This document shows positions 4,423 through 37,996 of a DNA stretch of 64,000 nt, piece after piece (position 1 is the first letter of the stretch; each line of letters begins with the position of its first letter). Source of the DNA: Acholeplasmataceae bacterium (GTDB taxonomy: Bacteria; Bacillota_I; Bacilli_A; Acholeplasmatales; Acholeplasmataceae); assembly GCA_021736335.1 (NCBI GenBank), contig JAIPGC010000003.1, positions 1 to 64,000 of the forward strand, given 5' to 3'. Position numbers and translations under genes: made by a program. Below the pieces are notes generated by a model. The model was not told where the DNA came from. It made no database searches and worked only from the letters and a program-made list of their open reading frames with translations.

Positions 4423-4583
4423 ACAATGTGTCGCGATAATTATTTTACCATGTAATTTTATAAATGTCTAATCGAAAAACTAATAACCATAAGTTAGTAA
4501 ATAATGGTATAATAAGTAGCGAAAAGAATATACCTATATTGAGCATAGACTTGATGAATGGATTAAAAAAACTAGGAGTTCAC

Positions 4584-5327
4584 ATGATAAAACCTATTTT
4601 TAATCGATATGAAAGAAAATACTTTCTAACAAACGATCAAAAAAATGAATTTGCCGAATTTTTGAAGACTCACATGATTTATGATTCTTTTTCAAATGGT
4701 GGTAAAGCCTATACGATTTATAATATCTATTTTGATACAGATGATTTTAATATCATTAGAAATTCTTTATCTAAACCTAAATTTAAAGATAAATTGAGAC
4801 TAAGATCATATCAATGTCCAGTAAACTCTCACGACTTGGTTTTTCTTGAAATTAAAAAAAAATACGAAGGAATTGTCAACAAGAGACGTGTAAATCTAAC
4901 ATACAAAGCAGCAATTGATTATCTTGAAAAGGGTATTAAACCTCAATTTGATGCATATATAGATAAACAGATCTTTGAAGAAATTGATTATTTTATCAAT
5001 ATTCATAAAGCTAAACCTGGTGCATTCATAAGTTATGAAAGAACCGCTATGATATCAGAGAGTGAAGAATTGAGAATAACATTTGACCATCAAATGTTAT
5101 TTAGAAAGCAAAATATATCGCTTACCAAAACTGGTGGAGCACCTATTATGGAAGACTCGACTACCTGGTTAATGGAAGTTAAGAGTAATGATAATTTTCC
5201 ATTATGGCTTGCTCAAAAATTATCATCATTTCAATTATATAGTCAAGGCTTTTCAAAATATGGAACAGCATACAAACAATTTCTACTAGGAGGAATTACA
5301 GATGATTACATCCTTTATGATTATTAA
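4584..5327 (+). CDS. VTC-domain (polyphosphate polymerase-type) protein
   Basis: MIKPIFNRYERKYFLT...YFDTDDF...KLRLRSY...FLEIKKKYEGIVNKRRV; the RBS AGGAG supports the start at 4584 rather than 4464. Confidence 0.82.
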   Translation: MIKPIFNRYERKYFLTNDQKNEFAEFLKTHMIYDSFSNGGKAYTIYNIYFDTDDFNIIRNSLSKPKFKDKLRLRSYQCPVNSHDLVFLEIKKKYEGIVNKRRVNLTYKAAIDYLEKGIKPQFDAYIDKQIFEEIDYFINIHKAKPGAFISYERTAMISESEELRITFDHQMLFRKQNISLTKTGGAPIMEDSTTWLMEVKSNDNFPLWLAQKLSSFQLYSQGFSKYGTAYKQFLLGGITDDYILYDY

Positions 5328-5988
5328 CATGGATACACTGACTTTAACAAATATCTTATATGTTTTATTAACATCAACAACTTTGGGTATTGTTTTGTCA
5401 TTAGTGTTTGTTTATACAAGAAAGAAAACAGTTTATGATCATGCATTTAGTTTCACTTTACTACTTTTACCCTTGGTGATTTCAATTATCATTATGCTCG
5501 TATCAAATAATCTTGCTCGAGCATTTAGTTTAGCAGGTGTGTTTGCTTTAGTACGCTTTAGAACTGCAATTGCTGATTCAAGAGATATCACTTATATTTT
5601 AAGTGCTGTAGGCATCGGTCTAGCTTCTGCAATGGGTTATTTACTTTATGCAGTTGTGATTACAGCTTTCATTAGTTTGCTACTTATTATATTGAGCTAT
5701 TTCCAAATCGATAAGGACCATACTAATCATGCAAAGCTCAAAATCGTGATCCCTGAAAACCTAAATTACTCCACTGTCTTTGATGAGGTGTTCAAAGAAC
5801 ACTTATTGAGTTCACAACTCCAAAAAGTGAAAACTACTGATTTTGGTACGATGTTTGAATTGACCTATATTATAAAAATGAAAGATACCATGGATCAGAA
5901 AAAATTCTTAGATGCTCTTCGAGTAAGAAATGGTAATTTAAGCATCACACTAACGACTGATTATGTATCACTAACATCTGAACAATAA
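5302..5988 (+). CDS. DUF4956 membrane protein
   Basis: Multi-TM plus FSLAGVFALVRFRTAIADSRDITYILSAVGIGLASAMGY, typical of DUF4956; overlaps the VTC gene. Confidence 0.8.
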   Translation: MITSFMIINMDTLTLTNILYVLLTSTTLGIVLSLVFVYTRKKTVYDHAFSFTLLLLPLVISIIIMLVSNNLARAFSLAGVFALVRFRTAIADSRDITYILSAVGIGLASAMGYLLYAVVITAFISLLLIILSYFQIDKDHTNHAKLKIVIPENLNYSTVFDEVFKEHLLSSQLQKVKTTDFGTMFELTYIIKMKDTMDQKKFLDALRVRNGNLSITLTTDYVSLTSEQ

Positions 5989-6157: not shown

Positions 6158-7483
6158 TTATTTTGCTAATGCACCCATAGGATCCCAAGGTTTTAACACT
6201 TTTGGTGCTTGTTTCCATGCTTTCTTTTGAACTTCAGAAAGATACTTTTCATGAATGACAGCTTGATAGACATATTGATCAAACCATGAGTCTGATGCTA
6301 AATAATATCCTTTACTTCCATTAGCATCACCCCAGCTATTTTCAATCTTAAAGCGATTAGGTTTTCCTTCATCTATATTGACTGCAGTAAGTAGCATTGC
6401 ATGATTCATTGCACTTTGACTGTAGTCAAGTTGATCTTCTTTTGATAAGAATAAGCTCATCTCAAGCATCTGATCATAATCATATGATAGGTCATCCCAA
6501 ACGCCAATTGTGCGATCACCATACCTTGCAACATCTGATCCGAACCAAACAACTTCATTATCTAAGAGTTGTTTCAAAACAAGATCCTTTAAATCTTTCA
6601 TTTCAAGGTTTAAATATTTGATTTCTCTACCACCAATGACATTACCTAAATATGAAACTGTATAAGTTTTCATAAAGGGTTTATCTTTTGTTGGTGAATT
6701 GATGATACTAACATAGTCCTTTAAGATGTCACCTACATGTTCAAAATAAAAACCTTGAGGTGTAAGTCCTTTGATGATATGATATTGTTCTTTTGCTATA
6801 TATTCAAAATCAAATGATTCTGGTGGTGTACCAAAATTAGTTGATAAAAATGTATATAGTTCATCAAGTGCTTTTGTCTTAAGTGCTTCAATCTCACTTT
6901 TCTTGCCTTCACTAAATAACCGTCTTGCACTTGCTGCATATTGGCGTAATTTGAGATTAATAATTTGATTCATAAATCTGGTTCCACTGCTTGAAGTCGT
7001 TTCTGCCATAGCTTCTTTTGGAACAATACCATACTTTTCAATTAGGCTTACGAACATATCCCATTGACCACCATCCTGAATACCTGTCTTTAATAGGTGT
7101 TGCAATGTTCTATCGTCTTGATCAGCATCCAAGAAATCATCAATAGATTCAATGAAATAATTAATCTTTTCAAACTTATCCCAAAAAGCTGTGTAGTTCT
7201 GTGATAATTCAAATTCCTTTAAATCGTACTTCTTAGCAATCACTTCTCTTAAATGATTGAGTCCAGCAAAAATCCAACATCTGCCACTTTGCTTTTGATT
7301 AGCAACTGGTAATGTTTTAATTTCATTTGAAAAGCGAAATTGAGTTAAAGGCTTTTGTTCTTGCTTATCAAAAAGATTGGCTAAATCATTTTTGACTAAA
7401 ACGCGTTTTAATGCTTGTTGAACTGGTTTTTTTTCATAGTTACTTTTTAATTTTTTTAAGTCATTTACTTCAATTTTTTTCAT
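6158..7483 (-). CDS. pepC: C1-family aminopeptidase C (bleomycin hydrolase-like)
   Basis: QKQSGRCWIFAGLNHLR catalytic Cys motif; MNHAMLLTAVNID and ENSWGDANGSKGYYLASDSWF. Confidence 0.95.
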   Translation of the reverse strand: MKKIEVNDLKKLKSNYEKKPVQQALKRVLVKNDLANLFDKQEQKPLTQFRFSNEIKTLPVANQKQSGRCWIFAGLNHLREVIAKKYDLKEFELSQNYTAFWDKFEKINYFIESIDDFLDADQDDRTLQHLLKTGIQDGGQWDMFVSLIEKYGIVPKEAMAETTSSSGTRFMNQIINLKLRQYAASARRLFSEGKKSEIEALKTKALDELYTFLSTNFGTPPESFDFEYIAKEQYHIIKGLTPQGFYFEHVGDILKDYVSIINSPTKDKPFMKTYTVSYLGNVIGGREIKYLNLEMKDLKDLVLKQLLDNEVVWFGSDVARYGDRTIGVWDDLSYDYDQMLEMSLFLSKEDQLDYSQSAMNHAMLLTAVNIDEGKPNRFKIENSWGDANGSKGYYLASDSWFDQYVYQAVIHEKYLSEVQKKAWKQAPKVLKPWDPMGALAK

Positions 7484-7506: not shown

Positions 7507-7534
7507 AAAGACGGCCCAACAGGGCCATCTTTTA
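7507..7534 (-). terminator. Rho-independent terminator ending the JetABC operon
   Basis: Minus strand AAAAGATGGCCCTGTTGGGCCGTCTTTT, starting immediately after the JetC stop. Confidence 0.85.
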
Positions 7535-10500
7535 TTAAACTCTAATCATTCTTTCATCCTTAAATGTTTCCACAATAGCATAATCATTTTCTTTTACAAT
7601 GACCAAGCTTGTGTTGACATAATTGATGATATTTGAAACGCGTTGAGGTGGTACAGCAATCAATAATTGAATGCTTAAGCTGTTATAGAATTTCATCATC
7701 GCATCGATTCTTGATTCATCCATATTATTAAATGCTTCATCAAATAAAACGATACAACCTGAGTCAATTCTTCTATTTTTGGTTAGAAGTTGTTGGAAAG
7801 AAGCTGCAATAACGATATAGAATGGAACTTGAGTTTCCCCACCACTCTTTTCCTTAGAAACCTTAGAGAACATGGACTTGTTCCCATTCTTATTCGTGAC
7901 TTCAATGTCATATGCCATATAGTTTCGATAATCCAAATACTTATACGTTAACATATCATATTCAGGATCATTAGAGGCAATCTTCTCAAATAATTCCATC
8001 AAGATGGTTTCATTTTTCTTTGTTAAACCTTCAGTAAACAATGTGTGCTTGCTAATTGCTTCATTTCCCATAATGATATTATAGTACAATTTATAATCGG
8101 GATCATCACTTGCTTTGTAGGTCAGCTGATAACTATCTGAACCAAAGGTCTTACCCATTAAGGCGATATTGAGTTCAGCTATTTGTTGCTGTGCGTTTTC
8201 AATTGATGCTCTAAGCTTGCCAACAAATTCTTCTTTAAATCCGATTTCTGAATTTCTACGAAGTTCTGTTGCTTCTTGTTCATAACGAACTAAGTTGTTG
8301 TTTCTAATCTTATGTGCTTCTTGTTCGAAATAAACGAGATCATCCATTGTCGGTGCAGCACCAAAATGGAAGAGATCAATATAATTCTTCATTTGGTTGA
8401 CAATGTCAGCTCCAGCCTTTATGATTTGTGAATTCAAACTTACATTGGATTGTGCCAAGTAAGTTGTAATTGCGTCATGGTCCTGCTTAAACTTCATCTT
8501 TAAAGCAAAGAATTGAGTATTAGCAAGACTTAATTTTTCAGGATGCTTGTGACTGAGTTCTTTTTGAGCAATAGAGAATTCATCTAGTTTTTCTTTGATT
8601 TCATCAATTAAGTCGATGATCCGTTGACGTTCATCACGGTTTGTTGCAATCTCACCAACAAAACTTTCTGAATCTATGCGTAATTGCTTACGGTTATCTC
8701 TTGCTTTTTGAATTTGTTCTTCAAGCTTAGCAAGATTCTTATCCTTACCTAAGCTATTGATTTGTTCTTCAAGTTGTGTGTACTCTCTTCTGGTTTGTTT
8801 GATTAAATCAAAATATCTGATTTGTCCTTGATGTACTAGTTGGTTAGATCTACTTTGTGAAAGTAATCTCATGATCTTATCGTTTTTATCTGTGATGTCA
8901 TATAACTTGTCCATTTTGGCTTCTAGAGCGCTTAAATGCTTAGTTTCCATCTCTGTTTGCATCGTAGTTGCTTGAGTGCCTATAAAAGGAATTTCATAGA
9001 CTCTAGGATTGATTTGTCTTGCAGTATGGTTACTATAAGTCATGCATGTTGGAGTAATCGAACGATTGAAATTCTTTAAGTCATGAACATCATCCACACA
9101 ATATGTACTGTTAAGTAGCATATTAATATAATATCTAGCATATGTATGGTCTGAGGTTACTTTATCTGCAAGTGTTCCAGGAACAAGTTGCTCATATGCG
9201 GTAAGTTTTTGTGTGTTAACGAGTCCAACTCCATATATCTTTTGTTCAAATTTAACTTGATCATATATATCAAGAGCATCATTAAAATAACTAGGATCTA
9301 CGATAATGTCAAATCTTTGTGTATTCAAATAACCTTCAACAGCATTTCTCCACTTTTCATCACTTACTTCAATGAGCTCGCATAATGGTCTTACACGAAC
9401 TTCTTTTTGATAATGACTCGATAATCCATCATTAATCGCACGGATTAAATTTTCTACATAATTAGGATAAGTTTTAACATTTCTTTTCAGTTGATTGAGT
9501 CTTTGTTGAGAATCACGTATTTCTTCTGATAACTCTCTTTTTTCAGCTTCCAATTTGTCTTTTTCAGTATGATATGCTTGAAGATATGCTTGAACTTCAG
9601 TATTGAGTGTTGAAAGCTGTTGTGATAGCTCTGAAGCACCAAGTTGATCTTCATTGGATTGATAATAACTTACAAATTCTTTCATGGTTGTGTTGGGTAG
9701 CAAGTTAATTAATTCTTTAATGGTTGTAAATTCTTTTTGAAGCATATCTTTAAGCTGTGATAAAACATCTCTTTGAGTTTCATATTCTGTCGCTTTTTTT
9801 TGCAATGCTTCTTGATATGAGCTTAAAGTTCTTGATAAATCACTATCATTTTTCGCACGTTCTAGGTTTAAAATTGCACGATCGTTTTCTTCGATTTGAT
9901 CATCAATTTGACCTTTAGCTTCGCGAAGATAATCTAATTTCTTATCAATTTGAGTTAATTTGTCTTCATTTTGTTTGATGAAAGATTCTCTTTTTTCTAC
10001 CCAATTGAGTTGATCAATGAGTTTATTGATATCTTGCTGTTCTTTATTTAATGTGATATCTTCACCAGTTTGGTGTATCAAATCAAGTTTCTCAAGTTTT
10101 TCACGATCTTTTTTGATTTGCATTTCAATCTTTTTAAGTTGTGCAACATTGTTTTTTAATGATTGAATGTCAATTGGATCATCATCTAGCAAAAACTCAA
10201 AGACGAATGCTTGAAGGTCTATTGATCTAAAAGCTAGGGCTTTGGGAAGTATTTTTGCATACTTAGTTGCATCCATACCAAAAAATCTCGCAAGTGCATC
10301 ACGATATTTTTTTTGTGTCTCAAAAGGTGTAAATTCAATATCTAAAGACTTAAGATAAGCCTTCATGCTCTTATAGTCTCTTGGATATTTCTTCTCAAGG
10401 AATAAGCTATCATGAATGGATACATTATCTAAAAGATAAAATCTTTCTTTAAGTGCGGATGTTTTTGGTAAATCAAGGATACATCCAATCACAGAAAACT

Positions 10501-10810
10501 TTTTACTTTGTTCATCGAAGAACTCTAAGGCGAGATGTGAAACGACATCTCCATTTCTTAGAAATTCTTTGTTTTCAGCACCAATACGACCTCTGACATA
10601 CCCTTCTAAAGTACGCTTTGCATCATCAGTTGCTGCAATATTAAATTTAGAACCACTTCTTCCACCTACAAATAAATATTGCATGGCATCTAGCAATGTA
10701 GATTTACCGGATCCGTTTTCACCGGAAATGAGGGCATTATCTTTAATATCAATGGTTTGATTAGAGAATAAATGCCAGTTGACTAATTTAATCTTCGTCA
10801 ATTTCTTCAT
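7535..10810 (-). CDS. JetC/MksB-like SMC-type ATPase (Wadjet family)
   Basis: Walker A SGENGSGKSTLLDAMQYL; long coiled coil; signature KSGGETQVPF; Walker B CIVLFDEAFNNMD. ATG at 10810 is better spaced from AGGAGG than the GTG at 10822. Confidence 0.9.
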   Translation of the reverse strand: MKKLTKIKLVNWHLFSNQTIDIKDNALISGENGSGKSTLLDAMQYLFVGGRSGSKFNIAATDDAKRTLEGYVRGRIGAENKEFLRNGDVVSHLALEFFDEQSKKFSVIGCILDLPKTSALKERFYLLDNVSIHDSLFLEKKYPRDYKSMKAYLKSLDIEFTPFETQKKYRDALARFFGMDATKYAKILPKALAFRSIDLQAFVFEFLLDDDPIDIQSLKNNVAQLKKIEMQIKKDREKLEKLDLIHQTGEDITLNKEQQDINKLIDQLNWVEKRESFIKQNEDKLTQIDKKLDYLREAKGQIDDQIEENDRAILNLERAKNDSDLSRTLSSYQEALQKKATEYETQRDVLSQLKDMLQKEFTTIKELINLLPNTTMKEFVSYYQSNEDQLGASELSQQLSTLNTEVQAYLQAYHTEKDKLEAEKRELSEEIRDSQQRLNQLKRNVKTYPNYVENLIRAINDGLSSHYQKEVRVRPLCELIEVSDEKWRNAVEGYLNTQRFDIIVDPSYFNDALDIYDQVKFEQKIYGVGLVNTQKLTAYEQLVPGTLADKVTSDHTYARYYINMLLNSTYCVDDVHDLKNFNRSITPTCMTYSNHTARQINPRVYEIPFIGTQATTMQTEMETKHLSALEAKMDKLYDITDKNDKIMRLLSQSRSNQLVHQGQIRYFDLIKQTRREYTQLEEQINSLGKDKNLAKLEEQIQKARDNRKQLRIDSESFVGEIATNRDERQRIIDLIDEIKEKLDEFSIAQKELSHKHPEKLSLANTQFFALKMKFKQDHDAITTYLAQSNVSLNSQIIKAGADIVNQMKNYIDLFHFGAAPTMDDLVYFEQEAHKIRNNNLVRYEQEATELRRNSEIGFKEEFVGKLRASIENAQQQIAELNIALMGKTFGSDSYQLTYKASDDPDYKLYYNIIMGNEAISKHTLFTEGLTKKNETILMELFEKIASNDPEYDMLTYKYLDYRNYMAYDIEVTNKNGNKSMFSKVSKEKSGGETQVPFYIVIAASFQQLLTKNRRIDSGCIVLFDEAFNNMDESRIDAMMKFYNSLSIQLLIAVPPQRVSNIINYVNTSLVIVKENDYAIVETFKDERMIRV

Positions 10811-11426
10811 TGTCGTCAACACCTCCTTCTACATAGCCTTCCAATTTATTTACAACTTCTTTGATGTTATCTAAGTTGGTGACATAAAGGATGGTTGGGT
10901 ATATTTTAATCCGAGCATCATCATGCAAGCCTTTATCGATAAAATCGATGATATTATAGTTTCTTAAAAATGATAATGCTGGTTTGAGCTTATCTTTTGT
11001 GATTCTCTTATGATCTAAAAATCCAATTCTTGTTAATTCTTCATGAATCTCATGTAAGAAGATTTCCACATTTTCATCAAGTGTAACAAAATCCTTTTTT
11101 CTTTGATAGATGATTCTAATGACTAAAATCATCAAACTTTCAGTTTTTCTTAAACGCATATGATTATAAAAACTATCATTGCTAATATGAACCACTTCAT
11201 CTTCACGATGAACATTAAGTGTAAAATCGCTTAAAACAAAGAATGATTCAAATAATTCTTTATAAGCTAAGATAAAACGATAATCGTTTGTATCTCCAGG
11301 CTTTCTTTTTGTCAGAAGATTAACCTGTAAAAGCTTATTGACAATACGAGAAAAGATGGTTTTTTCACCTTCTTTTAATGTAATGAAAATATCATTGAAT
11401 TGTTTAGCTGCTGCTGTTTTATTCAT
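10788..11426 (-). CDS. JetB/MksE-like protein (DUF4194)
   Basis: 212 aa winged-helix-like protein directly upstream of and overlapping the SMC-like ATPase gene; MRLRKTESLMILVIRIIYQRKK typical of DUF4194. Confidence 0.85.
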   Translation of the reverse strand: MNKTAAAKQFNDIFITLKEGEKTIFSRIVNKLLQVNLLTKRKPGDTNDYRFILAYKELFESFFVLSDFTLNVHREDEVVHISNDSFYNHMRLRKTESLMILVIRIIYQRKKDFVTLDENVEIFLHEIHEELTRIGFLDHKRITKDKLKPALSFLRNYNIIDFIDKGLHDDARIKIYPTILYVTNLDNIKEVVNKLEGYVEGGVDDNEEIDED

Positions 11427-12805
11427 GCTTTTACCTCTTTAATCCTAAAGTTTTGGAAAGTGACGAAATTGTTCTTACATTCTCTTCCTAATGGTTCAAC
11501 ATCATAATGCATACCAACAGATTTTGAATACAAGAAGATTAAGATGAGTCTAACAAAATCCTCTTGTGTTTCTAAATTGATCTGAGATGCTTCTAATGAA
11601 GAATGTCCATCAAGTAAGTTTTTAACATGCTCATCAATTTCTTTTTTACCGTAGATATTATTTTTAAGCAATGCTTTAATTTTTTCTTGTCTGTATTCAT
11701 CACTAATTTGATTCTCATCAAATGTCAATTCCTCAATTACAGGCTCAATTCTCATACGGCGTTGATTGTAAAGCGATGCAGTATCGATATTTCTAGCTTG
11801 TGTCAGGAAGAAAAGTTGTGAGTAATCAAAATCCCTTTGTCCTAAGACAATTCTAAATAGTCTATTGAATATACCTTCGATGTCATCAGATTGATTTGTG
11901 AAAAAGAGAATCTTTGAAGCTGCAGCACTGATATATTGTTCATTCTTTCTATCAATAGCAAGGATTAAATGTTCTAATGCTGTAAAACTATCTGTAATGA
12001 ATCTTAGACGATCTTCAATGTAAAGATAGGCTTCATTATAATCTTCGATTCTTTTCACCTTTTGGACCATACTAGCAAGCCCGTCCATAACCTCTTCACT
12101 GTTTCTGATATTGGAAACTGATTCTAAGATGGATCGTTTATATCTGGGTAAACTGTCTGTCGTTTTAAGATTGTAATAAGCTGAATCAAAGAAGTTTTGT
12201 TTATACTCTATGAGTAATTTTTCAAGTAATATCTGTAGATCTTGCTTTGATTGTTTTTTTGTAATGTCATAATAATATCGATAGATATTAGCTTTTAGTG
12301 ATTTGAGTTTGCGAATGATGTCATTAGTCTTTTGATAAGCTTGCTCCAAGACACCAATGCCTTCATCTAAGTTGAATGAATTCAAAAGAGAATACACAGT
12401 GAAAATCTCACCTGTATATTCGCTTTGGCGATTGTTTTGGATATTTTCTAGAATATCAATAATTTGTATGGAATAATCAAATAAGTTGAGTGAAGTTTTA
12501 TAGTTGCCTAATTCTTCTTCACCAATCCATCCGTTCTTTTTCAAGACATTGATGACATGCACTGCCTTCTGTCTTGATGTTCTTGCAGGCTCGTCGTCAT
12601 CGACATCAACGAACTCTTCTGTGGTCTGTTCATCAAAATAATCTATTAATCTTGAGATGATAAATTCTCTATCCCCCTGATAAGCATCTTCAATACTATC
12701 AATTGCTCTATAGATGATGAAAATACAATCGATGTATGTCTTTTTATTAGGGGAGGAAAGCACACTAAAAAAATTACTGTTGATTCTTTCAAAGAGATGT
12801 GCCAT
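11423..12805 (-). CDS. JetA/MksF-like kleisin-type protein (DUF5716/JetA family)
   Basis: MAHLFERINSNFFSVLSSPNKKTYIDCIFIIYRAI... N-terminus; overlaps JetB by 4 nt; conserved JetA-JetB-JetC order. Confidence 0.82.
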   Translation of the reverse strand: MAHLFERINSNFFSVLSSPNKKTYIDCIFIIYRAIDSIEDAYQGDREFIISRLIDYFDEQTTEEFVDVDDDEPARTSRQKAVHVINVLKKNGWIGEEELGNYKTSLNLFDYSIQIIDILENIQNNRQSEYTGEIFTVYSLLNSFNLDEGIGVLEQAYQKTNDIIRKLKSLKANIYRYYYDITKKQSKQDLQILLEKLLIEYKQNFFDSAYYNLKTTDSLPRYKRSILESVSNIRNSEEVMDGLASMVQKVKRIEDYNEAYLYIEDRLRFITDSFTALEHLILAIDRKNEQYISAAASKILFFTNQSDDIEGIFNRLFRIVLGQRDFDYSQLFFLTQARNIDTASLYNQRRMRIEPVIEELTFDENQISDEYRQEKIKALLKNNIYGKKEIDEHVKNLLDGHSSLEASQINLETQEDFVRLILIFLYSKSVGMHYDVEPLGRECKNNFVTFQNFRIKEVKA

Positions 12806-12895
12806 CAGATCCTCCTTTATTTTAATAAAATAAAAAAAATATGAATTTCATATTTATTGTAACATGAATTAGACATATTTTCTATTATTTTTGTA

Positions 12896-14554
12896 TTATT
12901 TGTTGCGACCAAGGGTAATCTTGATTTTCTTACCGTTAAACATCTTTCCATTCAGTTCATCCAAACGCTTAATTGCTGCTGGATGAATTTGAAATTCAGT
13001 ATCATTTTGATTGACGATAATGTCACCAACATTCTTAGGATAAAGGTCAGCATATTTCTTAAAATAATCAAGCATTTGCACTGGACGAAGTCCGTCTTCT
13101 TTACCTAAATTGATGACAGCATTCTTGTATGTACCATAAGATTTTTTACCTCTGGAATCTCCTGAAGCATCTGATCTATTTCTTGAACTTCCTCGAGTAT
13201 CATTGCTGTTTCTTGTCTTATAGTCATTCGTTCTTTTTTGTGCTGGTGATTCGATCTGACCATATGTCTTTTTTTCTACTGTTATCTTAGATAACAATGC
13301 ATGAATGATTTCATCATCTGAGAATCCATCTTCATGAAGATGTTCTATGATATCATCATAATTGTTTTCATTTTTGATAATGACATCTTTGATTTTCTTA
13401 TAGTTTCTTTCTTCACTCTTCTTGTAAATATCTTCTTCTGTAGGAATTTCTTTTGGTGTAATTTTCATCTTGATATAATTCTCAATCATAGCAAGTTTAC
13501 CACGTAAGCTTGGATACACTAAAGATACTGATAAACCTGATTTTCCAGCACGTCCAGTACGCCCAATTCTATGCACATAAATTTCATCTTCAAATGGGAT
13601 TTCATAGTTGATAACCATGTCGACATGAGAGATATCTAAGCCTCTTGCTGCAACATCTGTTGCAATCAAAAACTTAAGTCTTTTTGCTCTAAATCTACCC
13701 ATAACATAGTCTCTTTGACTCTGCTTCAAATCACCATGAATTGCATCAGCTTCGTAGTTGTGTTTTTGTAAAAATGCAGAAACACTATCCACGTCAACTT
13801 TTGTGTTGCAAAAAATAATCGCTGAATTAGGGTCATGATAATCAAGTACTCTTATGAGCAAATCATCACGATCAGATTTCTTCACCATATAGTAAATTTG
13901 ATCTGTCTTTGTTACAGTCAAAGTAGGTGTTTCAATCTGAATGATTGCAGGATTCTTCTGATACTTTTGTGCGACCTTTTTGATGAATGGAGGGATCGTT
14001 GCTGAAAAGAGTGCTGTTTGTCTTGTTCTAGGTGTGTCTTTAAGCAATGTTTCCAAATCTTCTTGGAACCCCATTTTAAGCATTTCATCTGCTTCGTCCA
14101 TAACAAGAATCTTCAGATTACTGAAATCAACTGTTCCACGATTTAAGTGGTCAATCGTACGTCCAGGTGTAGCAACCACAATATGTGGATGCTCTGCTAG
14201 TGCCTTAAACTGTTTGTTGTAAGATTCTCCACCAAATATAGAAGTGATTCTTACAGCCTTATTAAACTTGATGAGTTTCAAAAACTCTTTATAAACTTGA
14301 AGCGTTAGCTCTCTTGTGGGACAAATCACTAATGCTTGAACTGTTTTTTCATTGACATTGATTTGTTCTAAGATAGGTATAGCAAAAGCGAATGTTTTGC
14401 CTGTACCTGTTTGAGCTTGGCCAATCAAATCTTGGCCCTCTAGCATTTTTGGAATCGCGTGATGTTGGATCGGCGTTGTTTCCACTAGACCTAGGCTTTC
14501 AATAGCCTGTTTTGTTTCTGTTAAAATTTGTAAATCATTAAATAAAATATTCAT
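12896..14554 (-). CDS. DEAD-box RNA helicase with DbpA-type RNA-binding domain
   Basis: AQTGTGKT, VMDEADEML, SATIPP, HRIGRTGRAGKSG; C-terminal KKYADLYPKNVGDIIV...KRLDELNGKMFNGKKIKITLGR. Confidence 0.95.
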   Translation of the reverse strand: MNILFNDLQILTETKQAIESLGLVETTPIQHHAIPKMLEGQDLIGQAQTGTGKTFAFAIPILEQINVNEKTVQALVICPTRELTLQVYKEFLKLIKFNKAVRITSIFGGESYNKQFKALAEHPHIVVATPGRTIDHLNRGTVDFSNLKILVMDEADEMLKMGFQEDLETLLKDTPRTRQTALFSATIPPFIKKVAQKYQKNPAIIQIETPTLTVTKTDQIYYMVKKSDRDDLLIRVLDYHDPNSAIIFCNTKVDVDSVSAFLQKHNYEADAIHGDLKQSQRDYVMGRFRAKRLKFLIATDVAARGLDISHVDMVINYEIPFEDEIYVHRIGRTGRAGKSGLSVSLVYPSLRGKLAMIENYIKMKITPKEIPTEEDIYKKSEERNYKKIKDVIIKNENNYDDIIEHLHEDGFSDDEIIHALLSKITVEKKTYGQIESPAQKRTNDYKTRNSNDTRGSSRNRSDASGDSRGKKSYGTYKNAVINLGKEDGLRPVQMLDYFKKYADLYPKNVGDIIVNQNDTEFQIHPAAIKRLDELNGKMFNGKKIKITLGRNK

Positions 14555-14635
14555 TTTTTTCCTCAATTCTTTTTAAACCTTATACACTATACCATAAACA
14601 CTTTAAAAATACTATCATTCACACAAAAAAAAGAC

Positions 14636-25305: not shown

Positions 25306-26454
25306 TTATAATAGATTTCTAAATATTGCAATCATATCGAGTTTTTCCCAAGAAAAGGACTCGTCTTCTCTACCAAAATGACCATATGCAGATGTTTTAG
25401 AATAAATTGGTCGCTTGAGATCAAGCATTTTAATAATACCTGCGGGTCTTAAATCGAAGTTTTCCTTGACAGCGTGATATATTTTTTCGATAGCAACTTT
25501 TTCCGTACCAAAGGTATCAATATAAATGCTGACTGGTTTTGCAACGCCAATCGCATATGCAATCTGTATTTCACAAGCATCTGCAATACCTGAACCAACG
25601 ATATTTTTAGCAATATATCTTGCCATATAAGCTGCGCTTCTATCGACTTTTGAAGGATCTTTTCCTGAAAATGCTCCACCACCATGTCTTGCATATCCTC
25701 CATAAGTATCGACGATGATTTTTCTTCCTGTCAAACCAGCATCTCCTGCTGGACCACCAATCACAAATCTTCCAGTAGGATTGATCTGATAAATGGTATT
25801 TGATGTATCATATCCCGATAGAACAGGACTTAAAACATGTTCATGTATTGCTTTTTTCAAAGCATCTTGAGTCCATGACTCATCATGTTGAGTAGATAAA
25901 ACAACTGTATGAATAGATACAGGATAATTGTGTTCATCATATGCGACAGTCACTTGAGTTTTCCCATCAGGACGTAGTCCTTTAATGATCTTATGCTTTC
26001 TGACATACGCCAAACGCTCAGCCAAACGATGAGCTAAGTAAATTGGAAGTGGCATCAATGCAAGTGTTTCATTATTTGCATAGCCAAACATAAAGCCCTG
26101 ATCTCCAGCACCTTGTTCTTTATGTTCTGATTCATCAACACCAAGAGCAATATCAGATGATTGTTCCTTAATCTTCACATCAACAACGACATGATCAGCA
26201 TTAAAGCCGGTGCCTTCTTCATCATATCCTATTTGACGAATTGCCTGTTTGATGATCTCTTGATAGTCAATATGCGCTTTAGTGGTAATCTCACCAAATA
26301 ATAAAGCATAATCAGTGGTTACTGCTGTTTCAACAGCAACTCTTGATTCTGGATCCTGTCTTAGACATGCATCCAATATTGAATCTGATATGAGATCTGC
26401 AACCTTATCTGGATGTCCTTCTGTTACAGATTCACTACTAAATAATTTTCTCAT
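25306..26454 (-). CDS. metK: S-adenosylmethionine synthetase
   Basis: [60 protein letters not shown] supports the start at 26454. Confidence 0.98.
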
Positions 26455-26473
26455 TTCTTTCCTCCTGCTTTCC

Positions 26474-26506
26474 AAAAAAAATACGCTTTCCCAAGGAAAA
26501 GCGCTA
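26474..26506 (-). terminator. Riboswitch expression-platform terminator
   Basis: Minus strand CGCTTTTCCTTGGGAAAGCGTATTTTTTTT. Confidence 0.88.
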
Positions 26507-26519
26507 CATTTCGGATTTT

Positions 26520-26612
26520 CCTTATTGATGGGTTATACCCCTCGTGATAAGCACCTAATTGAATAGGTTGCTGCTACTTCGTCGGTCACTAGCCTCCGTA
26601 GCTCTGAATAAG
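26520..26612 (-). promoter_or_regulatory. SAM-I (S-box)-like riboswitch aptamer upstream of metK
   Basis: Minus strand CTTATTCAGAGCTACGGAGGCTAGTGACCGACGAAGTAGCAGCAACCTATTCAATTAGGTGCTTATCACGAGGGGTATAACCCATCAATAAGG: P1 closure, GAGG...GACGAAG...GCAACC core, P3 and P4 hairpins; then a terminator and metK. Confidence 0.88.
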
Positions 26613-26694
26613 TTAACTTATTATTTTTAATTGCTCATTTATAATACATGATTATGGTATAAAAGTCAATAGATTTACTAATGAAATCGTTATT

Positions 26695-37324: not shown

Positions 37325-37996
37325 ATGATCAATTATAATGAAGTCTCTGTATCCTTTGGAAAATTTAATGTTCTAAATCATATCAATTTCCACATGGAAA
37401 AAGGTGATTTTCTTCATATAATCGGACCCAATGGTAGTGGAAAAACTACGTTAGTTAAATTATTGATTGGCTTATTAAAACCTACAAGTGGAAAAATATC
37501 AATAGATGAAACTGTACATATGGGTTATTTACCTCAAAAGATGAACACCAAAGCGAATCTACCAATGACTGTGTTGGAAGTCATCTATAGCGGATTTAGA
37601 AAACAAAGCATTTTCATTTCGAAAACTGATATTGATTTAATCAAATATTGGTTAGATAAAATGGAAATTCCCCAATTGATCCATTCAAGTATGATGTTCT
37701 TATCTGGAGGACAGCAACAGCGTGTCTTCTTAATACGAGCTCTCATCTCTGATCCAGATTTGCTCATCCTTGATGAACCCACTTCTGCACTAGACCCTTC
37801 ATTTAGAGAAAAGTTTTACCATATGCTATATGAAATGCAACAACAAAAAAATATGACAATCATTCATATTACGCATGATTTAACCGATGCTGTAAAAGAT
37901 AACTGCTTGACCATGTATGTCGATCAAACTGTTAAATTCTTTGGAACTTATAGGGATTTCCATGAATTTGAACACAAGGGGCATCATCATGTTTGA
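37325..37996 (+). CDS. Metal ABC transporter ATP-binding protein (ZnuC-like)
   Basis: IIGPNGSGKTTLVKLLIG; FLSGGQQQRVFLIRAL; LLILDEPTSALD; His-rich tail HEFEHKGHHHV, UGA stop. Confidence 0.95.
   Translation: MINYNEVSVSFGKFNVLNHINFHMEKGDFLHIIGPNGSGKTTLVKLLIGLLKPTSGKISIDETVHMGYLPQKMNTKANLPMTVLEVIYSGFRKQSIFISKTDIDLIKYWLDKMEIPQLIHSSMMFLSGGQQQRVFLIRALISDPDLLILDEPTSALDPSFREKFYHMLYEMQQQKNMTIIHITHDLTDAVKDNCLTMYVDQTVKFFGTYRDFHEFEHKGHHHV

Follow-up and report, generated by a model that had tools for sequence, protein, structure and literature searches.

In published work on Wadjet systems (type I: JetABCD or MksBEFG), JetABC acts as the motor that measures DNA, and JetD as the cutter. A review describes a contact between JetD and an N-terminal IFDR motif of JetB (PMC10586767). 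The nuclease-less MksBEF of Pseudomonas aeruginosa has a reported role in chromosome organisation. An origin of MksBEF by loss of JetD has been proposed, and MukBEF apparently replaced Smc-ScpAB in enterobacteria (PMC10586767). Here, we analysed a stretch of 64,000 nucleotides (the window; contig JAIPGC010000003.1, positions 1 to 64,000) from a metagenome-assembled genome of an Acholeplasmataceae bacterium that shares its genus with Peloplasma aerotolerans (1.75 Mb, 99 contigs, 85% complete). The window carries a jetABC operon that has no jetD. In most of the order Acholeplasmatales, no condensin-type complex was found other than a nuclease-free type I Wadjet complex. We consider it probable that type I JetABC has permanently lost JetD and now acts as the resident condensin of the chromosome in a lineage without Smc-ScpAB.

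The three genes overlap on the minus strand, lie in the order A-B-C in one operon and are all full-length; open reading frames, Pfam and PADLOC agree with the initial annotation on this point. Profile searches indeed place the 460-amino-acid protein in the JetA family (Pfam JetA PF18982, E = 3e-83, 280 bits; PADLOC JetA1, 322 bits). JetB matched Pfam DUF4194 (E = 1e-21, 78 bits; PADLOC JetB1, 208 bits), and JetC matched Pfam SbcC_Walker_B (E = 1e-25; PADLOC JetC1, 1076 bits). PADLOC assigned all three proteins to type I Wadjet with large margins. The JetC profile matched JetC of the Escherichia coli Wadjet system (8as8) over the full length with E = 6e-44, but MukB with only E = 4e-16, and the NCBIfam MukB model gave 37 bits against a cut-off of 699. 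With 1095 residues instead of about 1480 and Wadjet JetC rather than MukB as the nearer match, the protein is not of the MukB type. The ATPase motifs, described as intact from the start, are all present (Walker A GENGSGKST, signature SGGE, Walker B LFDEAF). They are also intact in orphan JetC proteins, those without JetD, of families that lack ScpA, with conservative variants in some (GxNASGKS, DEVF). A single-sequence search of the PDB with JetA gave no match and a profile search nothing credible, but a fold search with its AlphaFold model (predicted local distance difference test [pLDDT] 77, predicted template modelling score 0.42) did succeed and matched Wadjet-II JetA and MukF. The predicted model of JetB (pLDDT 84) matched MukE and JetB structures.

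The locus thus shares with type I Wadjet full-length homology of JetA, JetB and JetC, the gene order and the ATPase motifs, but no JetD/MksG TOPRIM nuclease (DUF3322 plus JetD_C/DUF2220) is present in the operon. JetD_C and DUF3322 were also absent from the host genome in profile searches, at its 85% completeness, and more complete relatives agree. The genome therefore holds a Wadjet-type SMC, a kleisin and a KITE subunit without the nuclease, and the idea that the nuclease might be encoded elsewhere is contradicted. Among 101 relatives up to the order level, JetA was found in 76 and JetD in 8. Where JetD stood beside Jet genes, it was the fourth gene of the operon, usually in an additional Jet copy of that genome; the exceptions were G070 and the fragmentary G079 and G090. 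Every one of the 20 genomes from the window's genus contained JetC, in some cases as a fragment at a contig end, and the same locus was found in Acholeplasma laidlawii, A. granularum, A. oculi and A. equifetale. A. laidlawii yielded neither JetD nor ScpA nor SMC in the searches. JetABC without JetD is spread across most of Acholeplasmatales, and the absence of JetD is not a local loss. JetB N-termini were compared for signs of lost JetD docking: they are short in many orphan clades but also in some JetD-linked ones, and a long N-terminus is retained in the clade of the window.

It is very improbable that jetD was simply lost a short time ago and that the remaining defence operon is now in decay. 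Degenerate-looking Wadjet loci do exist in the class: in L176 (3626-4864) JetD is split over two frames, and in L174 (2980-5170) JetA is split, with no JetB or JetC found on the short contig. However, the interval between jetC and pepC was empty in all loci of relatives with pepC downstream, and none of the relatives examined had a jetD here. Moreover, the ratio of nonsynonymous to synonymous substitutions (dN/dS) of jetC was about 0.02 to 0.055 between close relatives, a rough value as dS was often above 1, and the ATPase motifs are intact in the orphans. This dN/dS was similar to or below that of pepC and the helicase gene that flank the operon. jetC is under strong purifying selection, and both the selection data and the distribution contradict recent loss with decay. 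Of the three options that the initial annotation had left standing, namely a nuclease-less condensin for chromosome organisation, a defence locus without its former effector and a system whose nuclease lies elsewhere or differs, the first is the best supported.

The whole-order absence of Smc-ScpAB is the main point, and it goes beyond what the window alone could show. Neither ScpA nor ScpB exceeded its cut-off in any of the 101 order-level genomes (one sub-cutoff ScpB fragment, in G045), and 9 of 14 controls passed for each. The best SMC match in these genomes reached at most 53 bits against a cut-off of 567, and several of the matches were the JetC reading frames themselves. Smc-ScpAB was present in related families outside Acholeplasmatales. 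In a survey of the class (n = 395), 102 genomes had JetA without ScpA, 13 had both, 168 had only ScpA and 112 matched neither profile. JetD was linked to JetA in 9 of the 13 genomes with ScpA vs 6 of the 102 without it. A Fisher test of ScpA against orphan JetABC gave p = 3e-20, with phylogeny ignored.

In an RpoB tree of 74 genomes, the families without ScpA formed two clades with support of 100 each, and parsimony gave two changes in ScpA. Clade alpha comprises Acholeplasmatales (families f1 to f5) and families f7, f9, f16, f23 and f24; clade beta comprises f11, f21, f26 and f27. Their neighbours f10, f12, f15 and f20, and f13, f17 and f22, have ScpA. In both clades, almost all families have nuclease-free JetABC; the exceptions are f5, genus g7 and, by the JetA profile only, G104 (f9), G111 (f16) and G106. 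Three genomes of f12 (G129, G140 and G157) each combine JetABCD with ScpA and a second JetABC that lacks the nuclease; the loci of coexistence in this family are L126, L127, L129, L133, L140 and L169. Family f12, which lies near clade alpha and has both systems, plausibly represents an intermediate stage. In JetC and JetABC trees, the orphan clades correspond to GTDB families, the pattern expected from vertical descent, yet they sit among JetD-linked branches. A single orphan origin was rejected by the approximately unbiased test (p about 1e-41 overall and about 1e-43 within clade alpha). More than one origin is likely, but since the test used the simple LG+G4 model and branches are long, the number of origins is uncertain. 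Across the class, the balance tips towards JetABC having independently replaced Smc-ScpAB at least two times as the only condensin, via an f12-like stage of coexistence.

Several observations weigh against such a replacement. There are only two independent losses of ScpA, which leaves a tree-aware test of the association of ScpA with orphan JetABC powerless. Some genomes of f12 hold orphan JetABC alongside ScpA. More than a quarter of the class genomes surveyed, the 112 mentioned above, have neither JetA nor ScpA, and most of f5 and of the small-genome genera g7 and g9, which belong to a ScpA-less clade, lack JetC, ScpA and SMC, so that loss of condensin without replacement seems to be tolerated there. 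The absence of Smc-ScpAB therefore supports replacement by JetABC but does not prove it. The same genomes favour an accessory role, in which JetABC would aid DNA repair or the handling of replication forks and small genomes would need no general condensin. We regard this as improbable, since the constraint on jetC is similar to or stronger than that on neighbouring genes and its distribution is opposite to that of ScpA in two clades.

No JetC, ScpA, ScpB or SMC was detected in the f5 genomes G064, G067, G072, G074, G076, G084 and G086 or in genera g7 and g9. These genomes reach 1.9 Mb, some are single-contig and 99% complete, and they possibly represent condensin-free bacteria. Among the g7 genomes, JetA and JetC were found only in G057, where they lie on two contigs; its relatives have neither, and the two genes may reflect retention or contamination.

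In family f3, sepF lies directly 3' of jetC in 14 of 14 loci (among them L083, L084, L090, L093, L098 and L111), and ylmH or ileS comes next in some. SepF was identified by Pfam with 36 to 48 bits in the six tested (cut-off 27). This arrangement is similar to the cluster of division genes in Bacillota, and family f3 would have a putatively defence-derived SMC beside division genes. In the neighbourhood survey, no neighbouring gene recurred among the orphan families in a way that would make it a candidate effector. Plasmid and phage collections yielded no close relatives of JetC, with less than 30% identity among the matches listed. One human-gut phage contig (MT835591.1:14834-18097) has a JetC-like gene with 25% identity over 76% of the query.

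Could JetABC still be a defence system that silences plasmids by compaction without cutting, or that uses another, unlinked nuclease? Silencing by compaction without cutting has been proposed for Smc5/6, the descent from type I Wadjet is clear, and extruding loops might by itself be enough to hinder a plasmid. Nevertheless, the near-universal, family-matched inheritance is unlike that of patchy defence genes, no candidate effector recurs, sepF is linked in f3, and where a genome has JetD, the gene usually adjoins a further, separate Jet copy. Continued defence is therefore unlikely, though a shade less so than the accessory role.

From the distribution, the constraint and the linkage to sepF we infer a role of JetABC in chromosome organisation or segregation; loop extrusion by these proteins is likewise a prediction. 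JetC dimers, linked through the kleisin JetA and held together with JetB, would entrap chromosomal DNA, and the complex would use ATP hydrolysis to extrude loops, in line with publications on other JetABC complexes. With no JetD present, an extruded loop would stay uncut, and the motor could therefore work on the cell's own chromosome, compacting it and separating sister chromosomes.

By its description, MksBEF of P. aeruginosa is likewise a Wadjet-like SMC complex without nuclease, but there it coexists with Smc-ScpAB, whereas here JetABC is the only complex of this kind found. The folds of MukF and MukE are matched by the models of the kleisin and KITE subunits; in contrast to MukBEF, the SMC subunit JetC resembles Wadjet JetC far more than MukB, has a shorter coiled coil and a separate origin. 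The role is presumably like that of Smc-ScpAB, which is absent from the order and to whose family models the subunits are too distant to match. Unlike type I Wadjet, the complex is conserved throughout the lineage, in a host without Smc-ScpAB. The best reading, by analogy with what has been proposed for MukBEF and MksBEF, is that a defence-derived loop extruder became a condensin by more than one origin.

The features of the locus are listed in Table 1. jetA and jetB overlap by 4 bases, jetB and jetC by 35, or by 23 if jetC begins at an alternative ATG at 10810. The promoter scan as a whole, which includes the candidate upstream of jetA, was not above chance. The hairpin past jetC (fold z = -4.3) has its U tract mostly inside the stem; hairpin, pepC and the upstream helicase are arranged as first annotated. 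pepC is the downstream neighbour in 27 loci of family f1.

Table 1. Features of the jetABC operon and its flanks, with positions in the window
Feature	Position	Strand	Evidence
jetA, kleisin-type subunit, 460 aa	11423-12805	minus	Pfam, PADLOC, AlphaFold model
jetB, KITE/MukE-like subunit, 212 aa	10788-11426	minus	DUF4194, PADLOC, predicted structure
jetC, SMC-type ATPase, 1095 aa from GTG	7535-10822	minus	PADLOC, profile, ATPase motifs
Ribosome-binding site AAAGGAGG of jetA	12811-12818	minus	sequence
Possible promoter TAGAAA-17-TACAAT, TG ahead of second hexamer	12856-12884	minus	promoter scan
Terminator-like hairpin, 13 bp, immediately past the jetC stop codon	7507-7534	minus	fold calculation
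pepC, downstream neighbour outside the system	6158-7483	minus	profile match, 529 bits
DEAD-box RNA helicase, upstream neighbour outside the system	12896-14566	minus	Pfam

Ten further proteins of the window, scanned with Pfam, were mostly housekeeping (NusA, IF-2, EF-G, RNase J, UvrC, PriA, NFACT), and no defence island was seen among them. A 223-amino-acid ATPase-like protein on the plus strand (37325-37996) resembles ATPases of defence systems (mad3, E = 3e-32; AriA; PtuA). A SAM riboswitch (Rfam RF00162, 49 bits; 26519-26614, minus) lies upstream of an open reading frame of 389 amino acids (25306-26475), and a gene for a VTC domain protein followed by an overlapping one for a DUF4956 protein occupies 4464-5988 on the plus strand.

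No report of JetABC in Acholeplasma or of the missing Smc-ScpAB was found in the literature, most subscription papers being outside the coverage. The findings bear on two general questions: whether MukBEF and other chromosome condensins descend from defence systems, and by what means a loop extruder armed with a nuclease becomes harmless to the host chromosome. The lineages without any condensin-type complex but a nuclease-free Wadjet motor in the searches include the cultured A. laidlawii and P. aerotolerans, in which these questions can be tested by deletion and Hi-C. Defence-finding tools may score such loci as complete or partial anti-plasmid systems. Because nuclease-free JetABC has long been kept in a lineage without the usual chromosome-folding machine, our data suggest that a Wadjet-type defence system became its ordinary chromosome organiser. 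If the repeated replacement is true, it would be a natural repeated experiment in turning a plasmid-cutting immune machine into a chromosome organiser.
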